Shown here piece after piece: positions 1-38,853 of a DNA stretch of 47,178 bases (position 1 is the stretch's first letter; each line of letters opens with the position of its first letter). The stretch is from a virus. The position numbers were made by a program, and so were the translations under genes. Location of the stretch: positions 1 through 47,178 of IMG/VR virus record IMGVR_UViG_3300041411_000142; one strand, written 5' to 3'. The notes below the pieces were generated by a model. The model searched no databases and was not told the origin of the DNA. It saw only the letters and a program-made list of their open reading frames with translations.

Positions 1-304
1 CAAACGCGAGTGTAACGGGCCATCCGATAGACCCCGCCTTTATAACCGCCGTAGACTTGATAAAAAGCATCTTTCAAAATTGAGATAACTTCTTCGACGG
101 TCTTTTCGTCGCGCGAATAATTTATCGCCAAATCATCATAGTAGCCGCGATACGAAGAAGTCAAACACGGAGAATAATCAGTTCCGACGAACTTAACGAC
201 GTAGTGGTTATCGTATTCAGACAGCGTATCAATCAACCGCCCGAGGGTAAGTTGTTCAGATTGATCATATTCAACCTGATCACCACCAATCAAATCGTAT
301 TTCA
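1..304 (-). CDS. Conserved phage protein, 3' end cut by window edge
   Basis: The reading frame starts at ATG 304 and stays open to base 1, so the C-terminus lies outside the window. A GAGG Shine-Dalgarno lies just upstream, in the end of the preceding gene. The visible residues include SYRGYYDDLAI, then GGYKGGVYRMARYT. I recognise this SYRGYY...YKGG.YRM pattern from a widespread family of phage proteins of about 100-130 residues with no known function. It is the last visible member of a leftward run of overlapping small genes. Confidence 0.85.
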
Positions 305-4796: not shown

Positions 4797-5309
4797 TCAC
4801 CAGTCAACATGGAATTTTACGCTTTCACCATCGAAAGCCGGATGGTCTTCAGGGATTTCATCGAAGACTGCCTTAAGGAAAGTTAGAACATAATCGGGAG
4901 TTTTTTCGTAAGGGCTATCCAACCAATCTTTACTGAGGTAGTTCACGCCGCCACGATTAAGATCCTCAAAAGGTTTACTAATCAACCAGTGCCAGACGTT
5001 CTGATATGGGCGATCCCACTTCTCTTCAACATCGCGAATTTTGGTATTGATCTCAATCCGAAGCAACATTTCTTCGCTATCTTTAGCCCAATCGTGAACG
5101 CTACCTTCAGGAGCATTTAGAACGTAAGCTTTCCCGGCGTAACCATTTTCAATAAGCCATTTATCGCGTTGAAGATTACGTTCAGCCCGACCTTCCGCAC
5201 TATAAAGACCGGCCATATCGTGCATCTTAAACCCGTACTTCTTTTCGAGTTCTTCAACAAACGGATGGAAGTCAATACAAACGGGATACTCGTGTAGTGG
5301 GATATCCAT
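4797..5309 (-). CDS. Hypothetical phage protein
   Basis: 170 residues, acidic and rich in Trp and Tyr. There is no signal peptide or membrane helix. AAAGGAAAAAGA precedes the ATG. Segments such as PYQNVWHWLISKPFEDLNRG look like a globular enzyme or adaptor, but I do not recognise a family. It sits between the DUF6794-like gene and the Cys-rich membrane protein. Confidence 0.75.
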   Translation of the reverse strand: MDIPLHEYPVCIDFHPFVEELEKKYGFKMHDMAGLYSAEGRAERNLQRDKWLIENGYAGKAYVLNAPEGSVHDWAKDSEEMLLRIEINTKIRDVEEKWDRPYQNVWHWLISKPFEDLNRGGVNYLSKDWLDSPYEKTPDYVLTFLKAVFDEIPEDHPAFDGESVKFHVDW

Positions 5310-35801: not shown

Positions 35802-36056
35802 TTAGAGGATTCCCGAAGGACCATAGCCGGTATCGAGCGTGCCCTGTTTACCCAGAAGGTAAGCGCTATTCAGGGTTTTAGCAACAACCCCTTCTTTGGC
35901 GCTCGCGATAACTTCGGGAGTCATACGAGAAGTATGGATCCAAGCGCCGTCGTTAAAACGTCCTTTCTTATCACCGAAGATTTCGCCCCAAAGAACATTA
36001 CGCCCCATTGGATCGACAACCCAGTTATCGAGGACGCCATCATATTCTTCATTCAT
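35802..36056 (-). CDS. Hypothetical small protein
   Basis: 84 residues from MNEEYDGVLDNWVVDPMGR. Overlaps the upstream gene by 8 bases. Gly/Trp-rich with a LLGKQGTLDTGYGPSG tail. Not recognised. Confidence 0.7.
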   Translation of the reverse strand: MNEEYDGVLDNWVVDPMGRNVLWGEIFGDKKGRFNDGAWIHTSRMTPEVIASAKEGVVAKTLNSAYLLGKQGTLDTGYGPSGIL

Positions 36057-36546
36057 CGGTAGCAACGCCTTGTTGGATCAGAACGTCAACCGCCGCCTTA
36101 AAGGAATGGCCCTCATAGACGTTCAGGAATTCGATCTTATGAGAAAGGACAACCAGTTCACTTTTACGCGTCAGTTGCAGTTTGACTTTCTTCAGGCCTT
36201 TGCCGCCAAACGCAAATTCTACGTCCTTGGTATAGAACGGAACCTGGTTAAACTGACCTTCGGTGATCAGAGGGTTGAAGATGAAGAACGAATACTTGCC
36301 GCAGGTCGCAAAGCTGATTTCCCAGAGCTTTTCGGGCGAGTTGTAAATCTGAACCATGGTGTCGAAAGAAAGCGTAGTAACCGTTTTCAGCAACGCGTTC
36401 TTCGGATCACGAACAAAGCTCTTACCGTTGAAAGTAAAGCCGAGTGCAAAAGCAAAACCGAGCAACTCATCATATTGAATCTGAGCGGTGTCTACTACTG
36501 CAGATTGTTGTTGCTCCACTACTACATCTTGAGTTACAGCGTTCAT
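36049..36546 (-). CDS. Hypothetical protein
   Basis: 165 residues from MNAVTQDVVVEQQQ; the longer GTG form at 36561 is less likely because the AGGG site is well placed for the ATG. Disordered Gln-rich start, then an alpha/beta domain (LGFAFALGFTFNGKSFVRDP). Not recognised. Confidence 0.75.
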   Translation of the reverse strand: MNAVTQDVVVEQQQSAVVDTAQIQYDELLGFAFALGFTFNGKSFVRDPKNALLKTVTTLSFDTMVQIYNSPEKLWEISFATCGKYSFFIFNPLITEGQFNQVPFYTKDVEFAFGGKGLKKVKLQLTRKSELVVLSHKIEFLNVYEGHSFKAAVDVLIQQGVATDE

Positions 36547-36605
36547 TTTTAAACCCTTCACAGTTTAGTTTTTTAGTTTTTAAAACATTTTCTTTACAAG
36601 AGCCG

Positions 36606-37100
36606 CTATTCTGCCTTAGTGTTTCCGTAGAGTAAAGCCTTATCTTCAATTATTTTAATCGCCTGAAGATAATTTTCAAAAGAAAATCCTTCATAGGGAA
36701 GGGTCTTAACTAGGTAAGATTCCAGCGATTCTCCAACCGTCTCATCGTCGATCACGATTTTAATGTTGGTCGTCGGGTGGAGCGCTAGCCAGGTGTTGAT
36801 TTCTGTCTCGCGATTCCGATGGTCCAGGAAAATCGGCGTCCGCCAGTTCTTCCCTTTAAGCATGTACTTCACCAGCGGGGCGCCGCCGTTAAAACAGAAA
36901 TCCAACACAAAATCAGCCCGAACCGGAGCGTCTATTCTCCAGTTTGAGCTGATTACGATTTTCATATCTGATTGTTTACAAATGGAGGCGATCATCCTAA
37001 CGGCCACCGGGTCTAACGTTCGCATCTTCGATTCGTTAAACGCGATGCTCGTTCGAGCCGTTGTCAAGACTCCCTCAATCTCCAAAAAGATCACGTTCAT
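36606..37100 (-). CDS. HAD-like protein lacking the usual Asp nucleophile
   Basis: 164 residues. The fold order is that of small HAD proteins (HAD domain of the Swiss-army-knife RNA repair group): IFLEIEGVLTT, then IVISSNWR with Ser51/Ser52, and IKIVIDDET with Asp118/Asp119. Where active HAD enzymes have Asp-x-Asp, this has Glu7-x-Glu9. That makes normal phosphoaspartate chemistry unlikely, so it may be a binding protein or a changed enzyme. The start overlaps the ArfA-like gene (ATGA). Confidence 0.75.
   Translation of the reverse strand: MNVIFLEIEGVLTTARTSIAFNESKMRTLDPVAVRMIASICKQSDMKIVISSNWRIDAPVRADFVLDFCFNGGAPLVKYMLKGKNWRTPIFLDHRNRETEINTWLALHPTTNIKIVIDDETVGESLESYLVKTLPYEGFSFENYLQAIKIIEDKALLYGNTKAE
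36608..36636 (-). promoter_or_regulatory. Leftward promoter embedded in gene end
   Basis: Minus strand TTTACT (36636-36631), 17-base spacer, CAGAAT (36613-36608), inside the last codons of the HAD-like gene. The -10 is weaker than in the others. Confidence 0.5.
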
Positions 37101-37237
37101 TCGGCGGCCTTCCTTTTCCTAGAATACGATCCTTTACCTTTCTTCGGAGACTCAGTTTTTGACCTAAAGAGCGGTGAGGTCACAAGAGCACCGACCGCGC
37201 TATCCTTAATTTTACCGCGACCGTGCTCGTGTTCCAT
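37097..37237 (-). CDS. arfA: ArfA-like alternative ribosome-rescue factor
   Basis: 46 residues. GKIKDSAVGALVTSPLFR, then KKGKGSYSRKRKAAE, aligns with bacterial ArfA (G-x-IKD-x-A, AL, PLFR, KKGKGSY-x-RK). ArfA enters the empty mRNA channel of ribosomes stalled on mRNA without a stop codon and recruits RF2. Bacterial arfA genes encode a longer hydrophobic tail that is removed by mRNA cleavage; here the gene ends with a normal TGA right after the conserved basic region. The stop overlaps the HAD-like gene (ATGA), and ACTAAA separates the upstream stop from the ATG. Confidence 0.85.
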   Translation of the reverse strand: MEHEHGRGKIKDSAVGALVTSPLFRSKTESPKKGKGSYSRKRKAAE

Positions 37238-37243
37238 TTTAGT

Positions 37244-37552
37244 TTACGTCCTTGGTTTGGTGGTGTAAAATTGTAGGTTGATGTTATCACAGGCCGATTG
37301 CCCAGGCTGTAGAGCCTCATCTTTAAAAAGCCGGACTAGCGGACCTACTGGCTTCGAAGGAATGTATCCTACTCGCTTCTGATCAAAAATAATATCGTTG
37401 ATTTCGCGTTCCAGAACATTTATTTCGGCGTTGCGAGCCGCTAGAATCACCTTCTGGTTTTCCAGCATCGTTTCAAGCCGGACGTTCAGCGCCTTGAGGC
37501 GTTCCGTGAACGCCACCTCGTCATCTATAGATTTCTTAAGAAGGTCTAACAT
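37244..37552 (-). CDS. Hypothetical coiled-coil protein
   Basis: 102 residues. Residues about 5-60 form a coiled coil (LKALNVRLETMLENQKVILA; EINVLEREINDIIF); the C-terminal 40 are Pro-containing and less ordered. AGAGGATTG precedes the ATG. Co-transcribed with the ArfA-like gene. Confidence 0.75.
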   Translation of the reverse strand: MLDLLKKSIDDEVAFTERLKALNVRLETMLENQKVILAARNAEINVLEREINDIIFDQKRVGYIPSKPVGPLVRLFKDEALQPGQSACDNINLQFYTTKPRT

Positions 37553-37557
37553 TTATT

Positions 37558-38022
37558 TCAATCCTCTTGAGTTTCTTCCAAAGTCGTTTGAAGAGAGACG
37601 GGAAAAAATACTGGATATGCTTTTTTGAACACCGCTTTGGATATCCCGTCAATTTTCCGGCCTTTAAGAAGGTTGACGAGCAATTCAGCTTCATCGGCGT
37701 GCAGGTTTTCGAGCAGCAGGCGCAGATTTTTCTGGGTGGTGTGAGAATTCTTATCGGATATGATCGCTTCGATTTTCGCCTTCGATCCTCCAATAGAAGC
37801 ATAGTGGTTTCCAATAGGATTCGTCGAGGCAATATATTTTGGTATCTCGATGTTCCCGAGCGGCGCGTTATACATCACGTCCACAAACCAACGAAGGTGT
37901 TGATTATCGTAAGCCAGAAGTTCTGCAGCTTTCTCTTCGATACTTCCATCAAGTTGAGCGACCTTGAAAAAGACTTCCGGCAAGCTGATACTCGTGTTGC
38001 GATAACTTTGTTGATTAGACAT
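37558..38022 (-). CDS. DUF6433-like phage protein
   Basis: 154 residues. The order LPEVFFKVAQLDGSIEEKAA, LRWFVDVMYN, then LRLLLENLHADEAELLVNLL and KAVFKKAYPVFFP matches a family common in T4-like phages that I associate with DUF6433 (small helical protein, function unknown). Its start overlaps the preceding small basic gene by 8 bases. Confidence 0.75.
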   Translation of the reverse strand: MSNQQSYRNTSISLPEVFFKVAQLDGSIEEKAAELLAYDNQHLRWFVDVMYNAPLGNIEIPKYIASTNPIGNHYASIGGSKAKIEAIISDKNSHTTQKNLRLLLENLHADEAELLVNLLKGRKIDGISKAVFKKAYPVFFPVSLQTTLEETQED

Positions 38023-38146
38023 CCCATTTACCCATTTTTAATTTCTGACGTTCATTATTCCGAGAGCTATCCGAAACGGATTTAACTTTGTCGGGAACAG
38101 CGGAGTGACGTTTCTTACGATCTTCTTGCTTGCGATTGTAACTCAT
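38015..38146 (-). CDS. Small basic protein (43 residues)
   Basis: MSYNRKQEDRKKRHSAVPDK to LKMGKWDV. Highly charged and basic, probably disordered and nucleic-acid-binding. The ATG overlaps the dCMP deaminase stop (ATGA) and the stop overlaps the next gene by 8 bases, which supports translation. Confidence 0.7.
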   Translation of the reverse strand: MSYNRKQEDRKKRHSAVPDKVKSVSDSSRNNERQKLKMGKWDV

Positions 38147-38853
38147 TGATTACTCTTCGTGACATGTTTACGGAGGTTTACGTTGAACTGAGCGGCGTAC
38201 CCGATTTGATTCTCAAGATACTCATCAGCTACTTTGTAATACTTAGATCCAAAAATAATGTCGGTAATAACAACTTTATCTTTTAATTGTAAGCCAATCA
38301 AGTGCTTAAGGCAATTCTGGCAAGGGGAATGAGTAGAATAGATCTTCGCCTTAGAGAAAGTTTTTCCAGTTCGTGCTAAGTCGAGGATCATATTCATTTC
38401 AGCGTGGATTTCATAATCCAACGACCAAGCCGAATGTTCTGGACCAGCTTCCGAGAAAATATCGCAGCAGTTATCGTGGCCGGAAGCCGAACCGTTAACG
38501 CCGGTCGCTACAACTCGACCGCTTTCGTCTACAGCAATAGCCGCAACATCCATCGAAACACATTTACTTAGGCGAGCCAAGTTATAAGTCATTTCCATGA
38601 AGACATCTTCTTCAAGGGAAAACTCTGGTTCGTCTGGAAGAAATTCTTCTTCTCGAATCAACGAGTGAATATCAAGAACTGGATAACCTGAATTCTTCGT
38701 TATCCAGATATTAGTATCCATGTCACGATATTTATAACCGCCCGTCGGTTTAATGTCTTTATAGAATCTAAATTTATCATCGTCGCTATAACGCTTCCCA
38801 TAATGAGTCGCATCTTCCGGTACAACGATATCGTCAATCATTAGTTCTAACAT
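38143..38853 (-). CDS. cd: dCMP deaminase-like protein
   Basis: 236 residues. The zinc and catalytic site is intact: EIHAEMN (His150, Glu152) and HSPCQNC (Cys178, Cys181), as in T4 Cd. It deaminates dCMP to dUMP, the substrate of ThyX. An 80-residue N-terminal extension (to about residue 80) is not part of the deaminase fold and is unlike the T4 protein. Lies in the accessory unit, not next to thyX. Confidence 0.88.
   Translation of the reverse strand: MLELMIDDIVVPEDATHYGKRYSDDDKFRFYKDIKPTGGYKYRDMDTNIWITKNSGYPVLDIHSLIREEEFLPDEPEFSLEEDVFMEMTYNLARLSKCVSMDVAAIAVDESGRVVATGVNGSASGHDNCCDIFSEAGPEHSAWSLDYEIHAEMNMILDLARTGKTFSKAKIYSTHSPCQNCLKHLIGLQLKDKVVITDIIFGSKYYKVADEYLENQIGYAAQFNVNLRKHVTKSNQ

Follow-up and report, generated by a model that had tools for sequence, protein, structure and literature searches.

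A core-only ArfA homologue in the genome of a T4-like phage

The arfA locus and its conservation

The window analysed here is a stretch of 47,178 nucleotides, IMG/VR virus record IMGVR_UViG_3300041411_000142. It carries T4-like genes, including those of topoisomerase II subunits, ribonucleotide reductase, dCMP deaminase, baseplate hub/lysozyme and a gp6-like baseplate wedge protein. Judged by the baseplate hub protein, the closest isolate is Pseudomonas phage pf16 (55% identity over 99%), and a megablast of half of the window against phages gave no match. The gene under study, arfA, belongs to a tight minus-strand block:

35802..36065 (-), gene of 87 aa resembling the N-terminal portion of gp198, which comes next after arfA in pf16
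36049..36561 (-), DUF7390 gene, also in this operon-like block (PF24116, 61 bits)
36606..37100 (-), HAD_SAK_2 gene, HAD domain of Swiss Army Knife RNA repair proteins (PF18143, 65 bits; phrog_1818)
37097..37237 (-), arfA, 46-aa ArfA core protein, ATG start, TGA stop
37244..37552 (-), gene of 102 aa upstream of arfA, no family
37249..37253 (-), AAGGA, candidate Shine-Dalgarno of arfA, 11 nt before the ATG, proposed from sequence
37558..38022 (-), gene of 154 aa, phrog_461, syntenic with pf16 gp200
38143..38853 (-), dCMP deaminase (phrog_174, PF00383), syntenic with pf16 gp201

The arfA ATG follows the stop of the 102-aa gene after a gap of 6 nt, and the arfA stop overlaps the ATG of the downstream HAD_SAK_2 gene by 4 nt (ATGA), an arrangement that suggests translational coupling of the two genes. 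AAGGA is a possible, weak Shine-Dalgarno sequence for arfA. No terminator-like site was found on the coding strand within or beside arfA, and a search for tmRNA or tRNA genes across the window gave none. A second tiny and strongly basic ORF (43 aa, MSYNRKQEDRKKRHSAVPDKVKSV..., 38015-38146, minus strand) lies between the dCMP deaminase and phrog_461 genes; it has no Pfam match.

The arfA ORF translates as MEHEHGRGKIKDSAVGALVTSPLFRSKTESPKKGKGSYSRKRKAAE (46 residues). An earlier note on this DNA had read it as an ArfA homologue across the whole functional region and had proposed a search with the Pfam ArfA profile. That search bears the reading out: PF03889 matches the protein with 81 bits (E 4.2e-23; gathering cutoff 25.5 bits) over profile positions 1-43 of 44, a signal resting on about 46 columns. 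With E values up to 1 allowed, no other Pfam family matches, PF23876 (DUF7230) staying below its family cutoff, and NCBIfam gave no match for any phage ArfA member tested. E. coli ArfA chains from solved ribosome complexes match the protein with E about 5e-11, and hhalign against 15 bacterial ArfA cores gives 99.5% (E 5.6e-23). At the sites aligned with E. coli ArfA, the protein keeps A18, L19, P23-L24-F25-R26, E30, KKGKGSY (33-39), R41 and K42. It thus contains the conserved core facing the A site and RF2 (A18, P23-F25, E30) together with KKGKGSYxRK, as well as a basic C-terminal tail reaching about Asn47, the length needed for the mRNA channel. The channel (tunnel) segment counts seven Lys/Arg in both proteins (E. 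coli 31-47, window 30-46). Judged by its sequence, the ORF is a genuine ArfA.

Homologues occupy the same position in pf16 and in three metagenomic contigs. They are 79-81% identical to the window protein and the gene order around them is kept, while the flanking proteins are 38-65% identical, so that arfA is the most conserved gene of its block. Between the window and pf16, the differences in 41 codons fall 11, 5 and 25 times at codon positions 1, 2 and 3 (dN 0.24, dS saturated). Between pf16 and one of the contigs (L005), dN is 0.15 and dS 1.54, giving dN/dS of about 0.10, and dN/dS is about 0.07-0.17 in the group of Salmonella phage Arash. These substitution patterns indicate that phage arfA is under strong purifying selection. 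The earlier note had made its reading depend on conservation in relatives, which these syntenic and selected homologues display.

The pf16 homologue is a 47-aa ORF with the same neighbourhood and an ordinary stop, differing from the window gene by its GTG start, preceded by AGGAG. It is unannotated: in this region (pf16 131775-132101; L001:3818-4144) the record lacks arfA (131775-131918, minus strand) and has instead an opposite-strand ORF, pf16_199, which covers the true start of the gene. This omission agrees with the earlier suggestion that such an ORF is overlooked as too small. Shortness, a weak ribosome-binding site and the omission by the pf16 annotators are what a chance ORF or a decaying, functionless remnant would also display. 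We give this explanation next to no credence in view of the E value of 4e-23 to a curated family, the strong purifying selection and the highest conservation in the block; the selection signal refutes it in practice. The window gene, which belongs to a T4-like phage, is on the evidence of homology and selection a real and conserved arfA that looks functional.

The ArfA gene of Salmonella phage Arash (gp99c, L003:2917-3141) is labelled 'ribosomal protein L2', and its start is probably annotated 27 codons too early.

Architecture of phage and bacterial arfA

In bacteria, RNase III cuts the arfA message at a hairpin, or transcription terminates there, and the resulting non-stop message is held low by tmRNA (PMC8012679; PMC10107115). 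These non-stop expression traits concern the regulation of bacterial arfA and lie outside the definition of the protein family. We compared the phage genes with 80 bacterial ArfA loci from one scan of bacterial genomes. All 80 carry a C-terminal extension of 16-54 residues (median 32) past the Tyr of GSY, whereas phage arfA stops 8-13 residues past the core Tyr at nine phage loci, 8 in the window. The earlier note was thus right that the gene, unlike bacterial arfA, ends with a normal stop immediately after the core. Similarly, a strong local 3' hairpin follows the core in each of the 11 bacteria tested (z -2.8 to -10.7), a strength reached by none of the 40 shuffles per locus used as control, whereas z at eight phage arfA loci ranges from +0.5 to -2.4.

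In the window arfA, both bacterial regulatory traits, the 3' hairpin inside the ORF and the hydrophobic C-terminal extension, were looked for and are absent. The strongest downstream hairpin (-22 kcal/mol, z -1.65, 36995-37054) lies past the arfA stop, within the HAD gene. It is probably due to chance, but the message may be cleaved there, and we counted it against the explanation of the gene given below. Phage arfA genes are mostly without the bacterial-type 3' hairpin.

E. coli ArfA cut at Asn47 is active, while the protein cut after Met40 is inactive (PMC5378476). E. coli Asn47 aligns to the final residue of the window protein, whose natural end thus corresponds to the shortest truncation reported active in E. 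coli. The early stop at the Asn47 equivalent, together with the missing tail and hairpin, leads us to regard the phage gene as the active core minus the control parts. With bacterial ArfA (E. coli, PDB 5mgp, 5mdv, 5u4i, 5h5u) the window protein shares the whole 43-position core, the residues facing RF2 and the ribosome and the basic channel tail, with 52% identity to E. coli and 67-76% to the ArfAs of Shewanella, Pseudoalteromonas and Rheinheimera; it differs by its minimal active length, the lack of a C-terminal extension and of an in-ORF 3' hairpin, and its ordinary stop. BrfA of Bacillus, likened here by description alone, is also a small RF2-recruiting rescue factor with non-stop-message control (PMC8012679).

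Predicted role in ribosome rescue

We consider it likely that the window gene encodes a phage ArfA working like that of E. coli, reduced to its core and made independently of the state of tmRNA. The direct basis of this explanation is homology, the conserved functional residues, conservation with selection and the core-only architecture. According to the known ArfA-RF2 structures, from which the following steps are taken, the N-terminal and middle part of the protein would occupy the empty A site, and its basic C-terminal tail would lie along the mRNA channel left empty downstream of the P site. It would recruit host RF2, add a strand to it and open it for hydrolysis; RF2 would then hydrolyse the peptidyl-tRNA, leaving a ribosome that can be recycled. 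Since hydrophobic tail and 3' hairpin are missing, the phage protein should be produced whatever the state of host tmRNA. Such constitutive synthesis would add rescue capacity while phage and host nucleases cut mRNA and generate many non-stop messages. We infer that the protein recruits RF2, rescues ribosomes, is made during infection and benefits the phage, perhaps, as the earlier note proposed, by doing away with the host's control through mRNA cleavage. The divergent ArfA of pelagiphage HTVC027P (gp30) shows high expression both early, 3 h after infection, and late, at 12-15 h (PMC12753301), so that transcription is established for at least one ArfA-like gene of a phage. In T4 infection, tmRNA remains stable, in contrast to the host transcripts, which undergo degradation (PMC9697503), so that hosts may not lack rescue and a simple shortage of tmRNA is unlikely to be what makes the gene beneficial.

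ArfA frees peptides without a degradation tag (PMC10107115) and uses the same empty channel as SmpB (PMC8012679, PMC5378476). The phage protein could then be a competitor holding stalled ribosomes or RF2, release being secondary or absent, and would keep tmRNA-SmpB from tagging incomplete phage proteins or triggering mRNA decay. The absence of the ArfA N-terminus in some divergent phage relatives would fit such a role, but the window protein retains the aligned RF2-facing and A-site residues, including the equivalents of A18 and E30, and we hold this alternative to be unlikely.

The gene neighbourhood raises another idea, namely a counter-defence factor directed mainly against RNA cutting by host toxins or anticodon nucleases, in which the HAD RNA-repair-like neighbour would mend RNA and ArfA would release ribosomes. 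The 4-nt overlap with the HAD_SAK_2 gene speaks for it, as does Caulobacter phage Cr30, where the ArfA-like gene lies two genes ahead of an RNA ligase gene. Two neighbourhoods do not make an association, however, and no HAD_SAK_2 gene adjoins arfA in pf16, L005 or the 180-kb phages. This proposal is compatible with core-only ribosome rescue and differs from it in the selective reason alone; as the principal reason it seems to us quite improbable.

If the window protein is active as an ArfA, phages carry their own ribosome-rescue factor, free of the tmRNA feedback that curbs the bacterial gene, and its natural length, equal to the laboratory-defined limit, would make it a ready-made minimal ArfA. 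It would also offer a handle on DUF7230, a widespread phage protein family, and suggest that freeing stalled ribosomes is a limiting factor in infection, also where the host has no ArfA.

Phage relatives, origin and a possible link to DUF7230

Matches to PF03889 above cutoff were obtained in pf16 and pf16-like contigs, in L014 (157.9 kb), in the Arash-like phages of 172-183 kb, in Pseudoalteromonas phage J2-1 and Citromicrobium phage RXM, as well as in Erythrobacter XM05, Caulobacter Cr30, Roseobacter CRP-212 and three Brevundimonas phages; alignment-based searches of viral contigs all gave the same 10 loci. The Arash-like 180-kb phages and J2-1 likewise encode a core-only ArfA with an ordinary stop, but in other genomic settings and with other closest bacterial relatives in a tree of low resolution. 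In this short tree, the window group stands beside ArfAs of Alteromonadales type and the Arash group near those of enteric bacteria and Pasteurellaceae. ArfA was present in 7 of the 369 gammaproteobacterial genomes sampled. Bootstrap trees require 4-5 label changes, which hints that phages captured ArfA several times; a single origin is still compatible with so short a tree.

Two candidates were rejected. 'Pseudomonas phage Y3' (OQ572405.1 20622-23741, L105, an unverified record) contains a Pseudomonas-type arfA with C-terminal extension and is likely host DNA, and the match at the RNA ligase gene of P. fluorescens phage Y1-MI is on the wrong strand, with no PF03889 match.

In the 180-kb phages, a terminator-like stem-loop with a T-run directly precedes the arfA Shine-Dalgarno and ATG (L009, L011 and L013, about 4960-4997). 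Its shape is conserved while its sequence varies between phages, and it perhaps sets expression by read-through.

Phages of alphaproteobacteria carry shortened ArfA forms without the HxxRGxIKD part, and arfA was found in none of 2,376 alphaproteobacterial genomes (PMC11633108). Two such proteins had already been named ArfA, RXM g10 in 2022 (PMC8953757), which passes PF03889 in our analysis, and HTVC027P gp30 in 2025 (PMC12753301, with expression data), which passes it according to that study. Unlike the window protein, both lack the N-terminal HxxRGxIKD part, have a different residue at E30 and belong to phages with alphaproteobacterial hosts. ArfA is also annotated in the GenBank records of J2-1 and Kikimora. 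The novelty of phage ArfA implied by the earlier note is therefore not upheld, these two papers and two records having preceded it. Within the open-access literature, the scope of our search, with subscription papers outside it, we found none testing a phage ArfA or noting the missing hairpin and tail. What appears to be new here is the stop-terminated, hairpin-free pattern over several phage lineages and, from profile comparison, a link between ArfA and DUF7230 via phages of alphaproteobacteria.

DUF7230 (PF23876; phrog_2701, 6310, 20887), a family for which we found no open-access paper using the name, comprises tiny basic phage proteins and is present in KVP40 and T4. It shares NPxAKxxRTPxFK...YxRK with the ArfA-like proteins of alphaproteobacterial phages and differs from ArfA by the missing GKG loop. 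The J2-1 ArfA scores above cutoff for PF03889 and for PF23876 alike. Profile comparison gave 97.4% between bacterial ArfA and the alphaproteobacterial-phage ArfA-like proteins, and 96.5% between the latter and the DUF7230 proteins of Acinetobacter phages, scores reached by none of 150 column shuffles per comparison. A divergent bacterial ArfA (L099, G374:C1:1078731-1078838) scored 87.6% against DUF7230. Compared directly, ArfA and DUF7230 match weakly (25-47%), and PF03889 gave no direct match to the T4 and KVP40 members. Because of the intermediates and the column-shuffle controls, and despite the weak direct match, we take the link as a lead rather than as a finding about function.

A broad phage family of ArfA-derived mini-proteins, leading from full cores through the N-terminally shortened forms of alphaproteobacterial phages to DUF7230 in Acinetobacter T4-like phages, KVP40 and T4, is conceivable, though doubtful. 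In the same tentative scheme, the shortened proteins would still bind in the empty mRNA channel, but their interaction with RF2 would be altered or lost; were it true, the control of stalled ribosomes would be a common phage function.

The divergent bacterial ArfA mentioned above contains RTPRFKMQ, almost identical to the RTPAFKMQ of Acinetobacter-phage DUF7230 proteins. In T4, an unannotated 39-aa ORF (NC_000866:161580-161699, minus strand; L127) lies between arn.1 and arn, overlaps the ends of both these genes and matches PF23876 with 45 bits (cutoff 27). The 490-kb genome of Agrobacterium phage Atu_ph07 has an unannotated DUF7230-like ORF located in a gap (L116:1192-1347), with 25.4 bits, just below the cutoff of 27.
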